Shown here piece after piece: positions 9,475 to 12,541 of a stretch of DNA of 12,541 nt (position 1 is its first letter; each line of letters begins with the position of its first letter). The notes below the pieces were generated by a model. The model was not told the origin of the DNA. It worked only from the letters and a program-made list of their open reading frames with translations, and did no database searches. The stretch lies in NCBI GenBank assembly GCA_030615745.1, contig JAUWYR010000054.1:1-12541 (forward strand), in the 5' to 3' direction. The translations under genes were made by a program, and so were the position numbers. The stretch comes from Candidatus Zixiibacteriota bacterium (GTDB lineage Bacteria; Zixibacteria; MSB-5A5; SM23-73-2).

Positions 9475-9572
9475 TTGGAGTATGCGAAGCTCGAAGAGTC
9501 TTGACGACATCTCCGTATGGATCAAGAGATTGACGATAAACCTTCAGGTTTGTCAATTTGACAAAGCTGAAG
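9475..9572 (+). repeat. Structured intergenic element, copy 2
   Basis: It begins TTGGAGTATGCGAAG like copy 1 and shares ACGATAAACCTTNAGGTTT. Hairpin A is TTGAC-GAT-AAACCT (9530-9543) with AGGTTTGTCAA (9546-9556), the GAT being bulged. Hairpin B is CTTCAGGTTTGTC (9542-9554) with GACAAAGCTGAAG (9560-9572), 12 pairs with one G-G mismatch in the same place as in copy 1. A and B compete for the same bases. An additional 5' pairing GGAG-T-ATG (9477-9484) with CATCTCC (9508-9514) is possible. It sits between metG and a methyltransferase gene. An open frame over it (9482-9742) mirrors the hairpins and looks non-coding. Confidence 0.6.
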
Positions 9573-9580
9573 TCGTAGAT

Positions 9581-9599
9581 CCCCCGCATTTTGCGGGGG
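9581..9599. other. Very stable GC hairpin after element copy 2
   Basis: CCCCCGCA (9581-9588) pairs perfectly with TGCGGGGG (9592-9599) across TTT. The next bases are GGCTTTACAC, without a real T-tract, so intrinsic termination is uncertain. It may be the final stem of the upstream element or the terminator of metG. Confidence 0.5.
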
Positions 9600-9607
9600 G
9601 CTTTACA

Positions 9608-9643
9608 CTCCAAATAGCTCTGGAGTTAAAGCCTTTAGGTTTA
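9608..9643. repeat. Short hairpin repeats related to the structured element
   Basis: ACTCCA (near 9608) pairs with TGGAGT (near 9621), and ACTCCAAA is also the reverse complement of the TTTGGAGT that opens copy 2 at 9474. CCTTTAGGTTTA (9632-9643) is a third occurrence of the 12-mer found in copy 1. The rest of the gap up to 9728 shows nothing further except the ribosome binding site at 9716-9721. Confidence 0.45.
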
Positions 9644-10525: not shown

Positions 10526-10644
10526 TGGGAAGGCAACACAGAATGTTGATATCCCAAAAGTTTAGCCAGCCAACATCGCCTAACAGAGGAGGCTGTCGAA
10601 AAATACCTTAAATGTCATTGATTTATATAGAAGCGAGATCGCTT
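10526..10644. other. Stem-loops in the gap after the methyltransferase
   Basis: Directly after the stop, TGGGA-agg-CAACA (10526-10538) folds against TGTTG-ata-TCCCA (10544-10556); no T-tract follows. Further on, CAGCC (10567-10571) can pair with GGCTG (10591-10595), and AAGCGA (10631-10636) pairs with TCGCTT (10639-10644). No gene is visible here. Confidence 0.35.
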
Positions 10645-10719
10645 CCTCGCAACTTCGGGTATGCTCGGAACGATAGGCGAAATATGTCTATAAGAGATCA
10701 AAAATAATGAGGTGAGAAA

Positions 10720-11172
10720 ATGGGAAAAAATGATTTAGTTGCACCATGCGGTGATTATTGTGGTGGCTGTGGACAGTATAATGGATTAATTGTTGAAACA
10801 GCCAAGCAAATGAGAGAATTTGCAGATCTTTACGGATTTGAATTTCGATCCGAAGGGTTGTTCAATTTTAAGCAATTTGTGAAGGGATTAGAATGGTTCA
10901 TCGAGAACGCGAAGTGTCCAGGTTGTCGACAAGGTGGAGGGCCAGCTTGGTGTGAAGTAAAAAAATGCTGTTTTGAAAAAGGATTGCGTATCTGTTTTGA
11001 ATGTGAAGAGTTTCAGTGTTCCAAATTTAAGGAGTATGCAGACCCTGACACGATGGATAGATATAAGAGATTTAAGGAAATAGGATTTGAGAAATGGGTT
11101 CAGGAACAAGTGCAGAAAGCCAAGGAAGGCTATGAAATACATTTGCAGAAAGTAGCATCTTTAAAACCATAG
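10720..11172 (+). CDS. DUF3795 cysteine-rich protein
   Basis: The 150-residue protein matches the DUF3795 pattern: an N-terminal APCGDYCGGCGQYNG (8-22), a central CPGCRQGG (66-73) and WCEVKKCC (77-84), then ICFECEEFQCSKF (91-103). Eleven cysteines lie in the first 100 residues (10, 14, 17, 66, 69, 78, 83, 84, 92, 95, 100), so binding of zinc or an Fe-S cluster is likely. The C-terminal 50 residues are charged and helical (RYKRFKEIGFEKWVQEQVQ). No signal peptide or membrane segment is seen. The family's function is not known; members occur widely in anaerobic bacteria and archaea. GAGGTGA (10709-10715) precedes ATG 10720 by 4 nt. It is a single gene in an accessory stretch with repeats on either side. 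Confidence 0.85.
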   Translation: MGKNDLVAPCGDYCGGCGQYNGLIVETAKQMREFADLYGFEFRSEGLFNFKQFVKGLEWFIENAKCPGCRQGGGPAWCEVKKCCFEKGLRICFECEEFQCSKFKEYADPDTMDRYKRFKEIGFEKWVQEQVQKAKEGYEIHLQKVASLKP

Positions 11173-11243
11173 CAATCAAATGGCAAGATTAATCTGTGGT
11201 GATCGGGCATAAGAGAAAATAAATATGACAACTTCGCATAATA

Positions 11244-11305
11244 CAGCATATACGGATTACTTTGTTAGCCCAAATTTCGGCTTCGCCGATACTCCTTATA
11301 TGCTG
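11244..11305. repeat. Imperfect palindromic element
   Basis: CAGCATATACGGA (11244-11256) pairs with TCCTTATATGCTG (11293-11305) with one mismatch; inside, TCGGC (11277-11281) pairs with GCCGA (11285-11289). The phrase ACTTCGCATAATACAGC just before it is also typical of dispersed repeats. Downstream, up to 11391, the plus frame NVVRNREPRATIGNFLDIH is open without a start codon and may be a gene remnant. The gap is otherwise non-coding. Confidence 0.45.
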
Positions 11306-11396
11306 GGAATGTTGTAAGAAATCGTGAACCACGGGCAACTATTGGCAATTTTTTAGATATCCATGCAACATTTATAAATGAAATGAGGTAGATGAA

Positions 11397-11852
11397 ATGA
11401 GCAATGAAATTAAGGAAAGACATCATCACTCGAATTTTGCTTTCTGGATAATATCTGTGATGCATGACAATCCACTTCTCCCGATTTTTAGAAATCCTTA
11501 CAAGCTACTGGAAGCAGCCGGCCTCAAACCGGGTCAAAAAGTACTGGAGGTTGGATGTGGTCCAGGATTTTTTACAATTCCTGCGGCAAAAATAGTGGGA
11601 AAGGAAGGCACAATTTACGCTGTGGATGTGCATCCGCTTGCGATAAAAAAAGTTCAAAAGAAGGTTGAAAAAGAGGGAATAAAAAATGTGACTCCTATCC
11701 TTGCAAATGCATCTAATACCGGACTACCAGATCGAAGTGTTGACCTTGCCTTCCTTTTTGGTCTTTTTTGCTCTTTCAAGGCGGCAACACGGGTTCAAAT
11801 CCCGTTAGGGGCAGCAAAATATGGAGAAAGTGGAAAAGTTATGAGCATATAA
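11397..11852 (+). pseudogene. Truncated class I methyltransferase (C-terminus lost)
   Basis: Residues 1-123 look like a normal SAM-dependent methyltransferase: an N-terminal HDNPLLPIFRNPYKLLEAAGL (23-43), motif I KVLEVGCGPGFFTIPAA (48-64), the strand-2 acidic residue in YAVDVHPLA (74-82), then LANASNTGLPDRSVDLAFLFGL (102-123). After L123 the expected remainder, including the 'R-V-L-K-P-G-G' strand, is missing. The frame instead runs through the 3' half of a tRNA-Glu gene and stops at 11852, adding about 28 unrelated residues. GAGG at 11385-11388 lies 8 nt before ATG 11397, so it could still be translated, but the protein lacks half of the fold's second part and is probably inactive. The break falls near 11766-11773. 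Confidence 0.8.
11773..11813 (+). other. 3' half of a tRNA-Glu(UUC) gene, remnant or attachment-site copy
   Basis: Reading from the anticodon loop: CTTTCAA (11773-11779, anticodon TTC), the 3' anticodon strand GGCGG (11780-11784), a CAAC variable loop, a T-arm ACGGG/CCCGT closing TTCAAAT (11789-11805), the acceptor strand TAGGGGC (11806-11812) and discriminator A. No CCA follows (GCA instead). The matching 5' half (acceptor GCCCCTA, D-arm) is absent upstream; that sequence is methyltransferase coding. Such 3' tRNA fragments are the usual footprint of integrases that use tRNA genes as attachment sites. Confidence 0.8.
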
Positions 11853-12067
11853 ATTTTCACCTTTTTTCGCCTCAGGAATTTGTTACTCCTTTCAGTGTAA
11901 TAGAACTTGTCTTCTATATGACAGTAATCACGCAAAATACGGGATTCAAATTCTATAGAATCTCTCCTGCTCTTTTGGAGGTATATGCGAAGCATTCATA
12001 CGAATATCCAGATCAAACATTCCCAATCGCGAAAGTCCCCAAAAAAGTGCTTGACAAGATTGCATAA
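11816..12067 (+). pseudogene. Unidentified C-terminal coding fragment
   Basis: Directly after the tRNA fragment, one frame reads KIWRKWKSYEHINFHLFSPQ and continues for 83 codons to TAA 12065-12067, ending VPKKVLDKIA. Composition and hydrophobic pattern look like real protein sequence, but there is no start codon or ribosome binding site at its beginning; the nearest upstream ATG (11768) lies before the tRNA segment. It is therefore probably the 3' part of a gene whose start was lost at the junction. It does not resemble the missing half of the methyltransferase. I do not recognise the family. Confidence 0.5.
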
Positions 12068-12136
12068 ATGATTATAATTAATTATATAAATAGAAGGGAT
12101 TTCTCCGGAAAACGGGCTACAAGACACCATTCATTT

Positions 12137-12159
12137 GTCAGGAGCGCAGGGAACCTGAC
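12137..12159. other. Short hairpin in the gap before the cold-shock gene
   Basis: GTCAGG (12137-12142) pairs with CCTGAC (12154-12159). It is another GC-rich palindrome in AT-rich surroundings and probably a dispersed repeat. The gap from 12068 to 12245 otherwise shows only AT-rich sequence. Confidence 0.4.
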
Positions 12160-12245
12160 CTACGAAGCTAGCGAGCTATTTATAAAAAAATGGATTAATT
12201 GGTCACCTTAATACACTTCTAATTATTTAAAAATTTAAATATAGC

Positions 12246-12273
12246 TTGACATTTAAAAACAAAAGGCTATATA
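12246..12273 (+). promoter_or_regulatory. Promoter of the cold-shock protein gene
   Basis: TTGACA (12246-12251) is a perfect -35 box; a 16-nt spacer leads to TATATA (12268-12273). Transcription would begin near 12280. Confidence 0.65.
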
Positions 12274-12279
12274 GGAGAT

Positions 12280-12408
12280 ACCAAAGATTTTGAGCTAACG
12301 ATTAAAACTTAAAGAAAGGAGTCTCAAGCCCAATTATTCGTTAAGAAGGTTAAAGAAGATAACTATTTTCAAAAGGTGGTGTATTTTTTCTGAAAGGAGA
12401 ATAAAAGT
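12280..12408 (+). promoter_or_regulatory. Long 5' leader of the cold-shock gene
   Basis: About 130 nt separate the predicted start of transcription from ATG 12409. TAACGA (12296-12301) can pair with TCGTTA (12338-12343). Cold-shock mRNAs in E. coli carry a long leader that acts as a temperature-sensitive switch; similar control is an inference here. AGGAGA at 12395-12400 is the ribosome binding site. Confidence 0.4.
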
Positions 12409-12541
12409 ATGTCTAAAGGGACAGTAAAGCGGATAATGAGAGAAAGGGGATTTGGATTCATTTTGGCTGAGGACGGAAGAGAGATATTTTTTCATCGCTC
12501 AGAACTTCAGGATGTGGACTTTGATAAATTAGAGGAAGGAG
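12409..12541 (+). CDS. Cold-shock domain protein (3' end outside window)
   Basis: The first 44 codons read MSKGTVKRIMRERGFGFI and onward. RNP1 is seen as RGFGFI (13-18) and RNP2 as IFFHRSEL (26-33), the two RNA-binding motifs of the CspA family, with the aromatic side chains in place. Typical members have about 65-70 residues, so roughly the last third lies beyond the window. The protein would bind single-stranded RNA/DNA and act as an RNA chaperone. AGGAGA (12395-12400) supports ATG 12409, and the gene has its own promoter and a long leader. Which paralogue it is cannot be told. Confidence 0.9.
   Translation, partial: MSKGTVKRIMRERGFGFILAEDGREIFFHRSELQDVDFDKLEEG

Follow-up and report, generated by a model that had tools for sequence, protein, structure and literature searches.

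The window analysed here is a whole contig (C26, 12,541 nt, JAUWYR010000054.1, forward strand) of a metagenome-assembled genome from the phylum Zixibacteria, G000, which amounts to 2.28 Mb and is 98.6% complete. Positions 11397-11765 hold, on the plus strand, a class I SAM-dependent methyltransferase gene (Pfam Methyltransf_25, E = 5.6e-14) of which only the 5' two-thirds are present. Two junction bases, TT (11766-11767, defined by sequence comparison), separate it from a 3' fragment of a tRNA-Glu(UUC) gene at 11768-11812 on the same strand, which we propose to be an attachment site remnant.

A methyltransferase gene broken at a tRNA-Glu fragment

The methyltransferase gene (METHYLTRANSFERASE) runs on in two relatives where it is intact, G001 from the same genus as G000 and G044 from another family. 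DNA identity to these is 77-78%, beginning at 11395 (11353 with G044) and stopping at 11765; at the protein level it is 81% to the G001 copy and 79% to the G044 copy. About 123 residues are kept in the window compared with 188 in the intact G044 protein, so that the last third is missing, and this C-terminus was found nowhere else in the G000 genome. The reading frame extends 28 codons past the break, through the tRNA fragment, and the product is probably inactive. Our search for the gene that follows the methyltransferase in G001 returned no match in G000, an empty answer that carries no weight.

The tRNA-Glu fragment comprises 45 bases: the anticodon arm (TTGCT-CTTTCAA-GGCGG), the variable region, the T arm (ACGGG-TTCAAAT-CCCGT) and the 3' acceptor strand. 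Its identity is directly supported: it matches tRNA-Glu genes at 36-40 of 45 positions (36 for the tRNA-Glu of its own genome and likewise for a fragment in genome G006, 40 for a phage tRNA-Glu), whereas the best score among 300 shuffled windows was 26. A reading of this DNA from the sequence only had placed an intact methyltransferase up to about residue 123, followed by the 3' part of tRNA-Glu(UUC), and this is what we find; that reading was also right that the fragment reaches the tRNA 3' end (11812), but it began the fragment at the anticodon loop, and the anticodon stem is present as well. The start lies at 11768 by structure (nt 27) and at 11770 by BLAST (nt 29). As that reading expected, ARAGORN and Rfam found no complete tRNA in the window; the fragment itself went undetected in an Rfam search with loose E-values. 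We ruled out a functional tRNA gene at 11768-11812 because the cloverleaf is incomplete.

The intact tRNA-Glu gene that had been suggested for comparison does exist in the genome (C30:22256-22330, minus strand; BLAST E = 1.1e-6), but at 85% identity over 41 bp it is not the copy from which the fragment came. The fragment has T at nt 27, 28 and 31 where other copies have C, giving TTGCT in place of CCGCC at nt 27-31; three G.U pairs still allow pairing with GGCGG. Its anticodon loop is CTTTCAA, where every native tRNA-Glu gene that we examined in the class has CTTTCAC, and its acceptor stem also differs from that of native tRNA-Glu. Among viral contigs, relaxing the tRNA pattern gave a single phage tRNA array, which contains a complete tRNA-Glu, and neither the fragment-plus-flank pattern nor the flank pattern found a match.

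The edges of the methyltransferase homology and of the fragment lie no more than 3 bp apart. The methyltransferase reads GGTCTT at the junction, and the sequence GTCTTTT (11761-11767) just 5' of the fragment recurs 5' of another tRNA-Glu fragment, in G003:C47. A microhomology join at GTCTT is thus possible, seven T-rich bases being weak evidence.

The junction could instead be an artefact, a wrong fusion of two places during metagenome assembly. Only one assembly of the species is to hand, and the last 141 bp of the contig (12401-12541) overlap exactly with an end of contig C50, as happens where an assembly graph branches. In the chromosome C26 and C50 are probably adjacent, the overlap being such as a k=141 assembler leaves. 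The methyltransferase/tRNA junction, on the other hand, is about 770 bp away from the contig end, in surroundings free of genome repeats except for the 41-bp tRNA match and short matches, and we consider an assembly error there very improbable.

Three further observations concern the DNA upstream. A 148-bp repeat at 9475-9612 has a second copy in the genome, on a different contig (L022, 5343-5490; 86% identity). The stretch 10526-11394 (870 bp) is missing between two adjacent methyltransferase genes of G001, and 11228-11318, 3' of a DUF3795 gene, forms a strong attC-like hairpin (z = -5.2); with both these properties the stretch looks like an integron-type gene cassette.

The chromosomal block to the right of the fragment

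The DNA to the right had been described as an unrelated coding fragment. It proves to be the upstream flank of a cold-shock-like gene (csp), with an inserted promoter repeat. Plus-strand positions 11813-11986 are a flank conserved 5' of csp in the order-mate Zixibacteria SM23_73_3 (G003, contig LJUX01000074). Over 11800-11986 identity to G003:C41 is 76%, the indels measuring 1, 2 and 3 nt and the mismatches falling 17/13/10 on the three codon positions. Given this homology, the non-triplet indels and the lack of codon periodicity, this DNA is non-coding and the open reading frame 11768-12067 is not a gene; Pfam gave no match for it.

Positions 11987-12173 (plus strand) are an insert relative to G003, with no match in G003:C41. 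Homology resumes at 12174 (82.5% identity over 12174-12539) with the remaining upstream region of csp, which has a TTGACA-type -35 of its own (12174-12408, plus strand), and with the start of csp itself (12409-12541, plus strand), whose rest lies in C50. There csp is followed by what we take from the sequence to be ilvC.

The insert carries a promoter repeat (12005-12122) with a perfect sigma-70-type match, TTGACA-16-TATAAT at 12051-12078 (12/12 in the promoter scan). The repeat (CCCCAAAAAAGTGCTTGACAAGATTGCATAAATGATTATAAT...) has 21 further matches besides the window copy (for example L060, L061, L062, L065 and L075) and occurs in nine of the 11 genomes of the order. It stands before unrelated genes (TIR-like, HicB-like and integrase-like, named by eye), some copies being followed by GTTAGGC-like motifs, and directly 3' of a tRNA-Glu 3' fragment in G003:C47 and G006:C11. 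Possible identities of the repeat are a cassette promoter and a mobile leader.

The left neighbours of the fragment/csp block differ between G000 and G003. The counterpart fragment in G003:C41 is eroded, with no more than its last ~14 nt clear, and leftward of these the evidence for homology is suggestive (anchored p = 0.013). Since flank and csp are common to both genomes, their common descent is directly supported, and the comparison indicates that the fragment end, the flank and csp were already together before G000 and G003 diverged. The fragment thus belongs with the csp block, and the methyltransferase is the newcomer at the junction. Across genome contigs the flank pattern truly matched only SM23_73_3; the flank is therefore no widespread element.

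These comparisons bear on two suggestions of the sequence-only reading, that the methyltransferase was the target of integration and that an element lies to the right of the fragment. The first conflicts with G003, where fragment end, flank and csp stand together beside another left neighbour, and the second with G000 itself, where csp and then ilvC occupy the place of the supposed element. Both suggestions would fit a circular element that carried a tRNA-Glu attP and entered the methyltransferase at a secondary site, the right-hand DNA being the element. Such an event would account for the coinciding edges of methyltransferase and fragment, and 3' tDNA fragments are normal parts of attP (PMC4383910). 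We nonetheless regard it as quite improbable: the right-hand DNA is the csp-ilvC chromosomal block, partly common to G003; the displaced methyltransferase tail is absent from the rest of a 98.6% complete genome; and the intact genes of G001 and G044 read CGTTAC at the place of TTTTGC in the window, so that no core-like site is visible in the methyltransferase. The search that had been proposed for an integrase and the missing C-terminus next to the junction gave neither, with no integrase flanking the junction and no C-terminus in the genome.

tRNA-Glu fragments and integrases in the order

A pattern search of the 11 genomes of the order found intact tRNA-Glu genes and three 3' fragments besides that of the window. 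It is a direct observation that all three begin with the first base of the anticodon stem, nt 30 in the 76-nt gene. With full genes excluded, the pattern found only these three among 132 genomes of the phylum and none in the other 121; this fragment-only pattern misses fragments that follow an A or whose stem has changed, and the window's own fragment too. Two of the three, at G006:C54:66899-66943 and G003:C47:4682-4723, are 3' parts of tRNA-Glu(UUC) that share their start nucleotide with the window fragment and keep the CCGCC stem, which the window fragment does not. With its 85% identity and without CCGCC at nt 27-31, the window fragment has a less exact start than these sisters.

Both have surroundings that the window fragment lacks. 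Over 177 bp, the G006:C54 fragment and 131 bp of its flank share 79% identity with the 3' part and flank of the intact G000 tRNA-Glu, whereas the intact tRNA-Glu of G006 has a different flank. The G006:C54 fragment has thus kept the ancestral downstream flank of tRNA-Glu, the product expected from island integration. On its island side, ~3-7 kb away (region L116, G006:C54:60000-68645), lies a CBASS-like set comprising a cyclase (E = 1.4e-151), a SAVED endonuclease and E1-E2 proteins. The G003:C47 fragment lies ~0.4 kb from an integrase gene (PF00589, E = 1.2e-30). In G010:C217, a tyrosine integrase gene (L117, 559-1716; E = 8e-34) has its last codons within the 3' part of an intact tRNA-Glu, so its frame crosses the likely attachment site; relatives of this integrase lie near tRNA-Ser genes in G006, G008 and G010. 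The common start, the one displaced native flank and the integrases near or overlapping tRNA-Glu support the earlier suggestion of an anticodon-type att remnant.

A simpler history would dispense with the integrase: an extra tRNA-Glu stood 5' of csp, and a deletion ran from inside it into the methyltransferase, taking away the 5' half of the tRNA and the methyltransferase tail. No integrase lies near the junction, the acceptor stem of the fragment is unlike that of native tRNA-Glu, and the tRNA end sits on the csp block in G000 and G003 alike, all as such decay would have it. The structural start, however, is also that of the three sister fragments, of which two have island features, and a complete tRNA-Glu 5' of csp occurs in no genome examined, several contigs being short. 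We hold plain decay to be unlikely.

Origin of the scar

The reading we prefer, with a probability of about 0.58, is that the fragment is the eroded attR-type 3' end of a former tRNA-Glu island, to which a later rearrangement joined the methyltransferase. That an integrase produced the window fragment is our inference, as is the following course of events. First, a tyrosine-integrase element would have entered a tRNA-Glu, at that time located 5' of csp, by recombination at its anticodon arm, rebuilding the tRNA at one end and leaving the 3' part, from nt 27, beside the csp flank. Second, the element would have decayed and the fragment changed at nt 27, 28 and 31. Third, a deletion or rearrangement on the branch leading to G000, perhaps by way of the GTCTT microhomology, would have put codon 123 of the methyltransferase at the left edge of the scar, the loss of the tail being directly observed.

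As in an attR, the fragment runs from an internal point of the tRNA to its 3' end with a match beyond chance, starts at the anticodon arm, a known crossover site, and is followed by a flank of original chromosomal DNA that predates what now lies to the left. No second att site flanks it, tblastn with the integrases of the order found near it only tRNA overlap, and C26 holds no intact tRNA-Glu, the genome's copy being on C30. Because no intact cognate tRNA stands on the contig, our claim is of an island relic and not of an intact island. A candidate integrase relic beside the native tRNA-Glu of G000 was dropped, since only the tRNA overlap and about two codons matched.

Speaking against the island relic are the missing integrase, complete tRNA-Glu and second att site, the 85% identity and less exact start of the fragment, the erosion of its counterpart in G003:C41, and the coincidence of the methyltransferase and fragment edges, which an unrelated deletion would hit by chance only. 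That coincidence, within 3 bp, together with the differing left neighbours in G003 and G000, underlies another proposal: that an integrase recombined a pseudo-att site in the methyltransferase with the old tRNA-Glu scar, the tRNA scars of the order serving as rearrangement points. We give this proposal little weight.

An eroded island end would have close precedents. In Islander, anticodon-centred attachment sites are the commoner kind (2083 versus 1836; PMC4383910). The window resembles this 'A' type in that its 3' tDNA fragment begins at the anticodon arm and that tyrosine integrase genes occur in the order, including one whose frame crosses the tRNA; it differs in that its contig lacks an island, an integrase and an intact partner tRNA, in that its sequence has diverged, and in that the fragment adjoins a broken conserved domain. 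Partial tRNAs separated from intact copies through rearrangement have been published (PMC9897764). PYG1 at tRNA-Gln of Pyrococcus yayanosii has a repeat of similar size, 44 bp compared with 45 nt here, and at the Arg-TCT fragment of Thermococcus kodakarensis a rearrangement has likewise separated fragment and intact tRNA (both PMC9897764). Those cases differ from G000 in belonging to Archaea and in having elements that are still recognisable.

Unless the assembly is wrong, the scar is real but ordinary, of a known kind. It explains a puzzling truncation of the methyltransferase, and it is a warning for annotation, as the frame 11768-12067 might be called a gene. For the organisms themselves, the data indicate that islands integrate at tRNA-Glu(UUC) in one Zixibacteria order, where a CBASS cluster lies next to one of the island ends.
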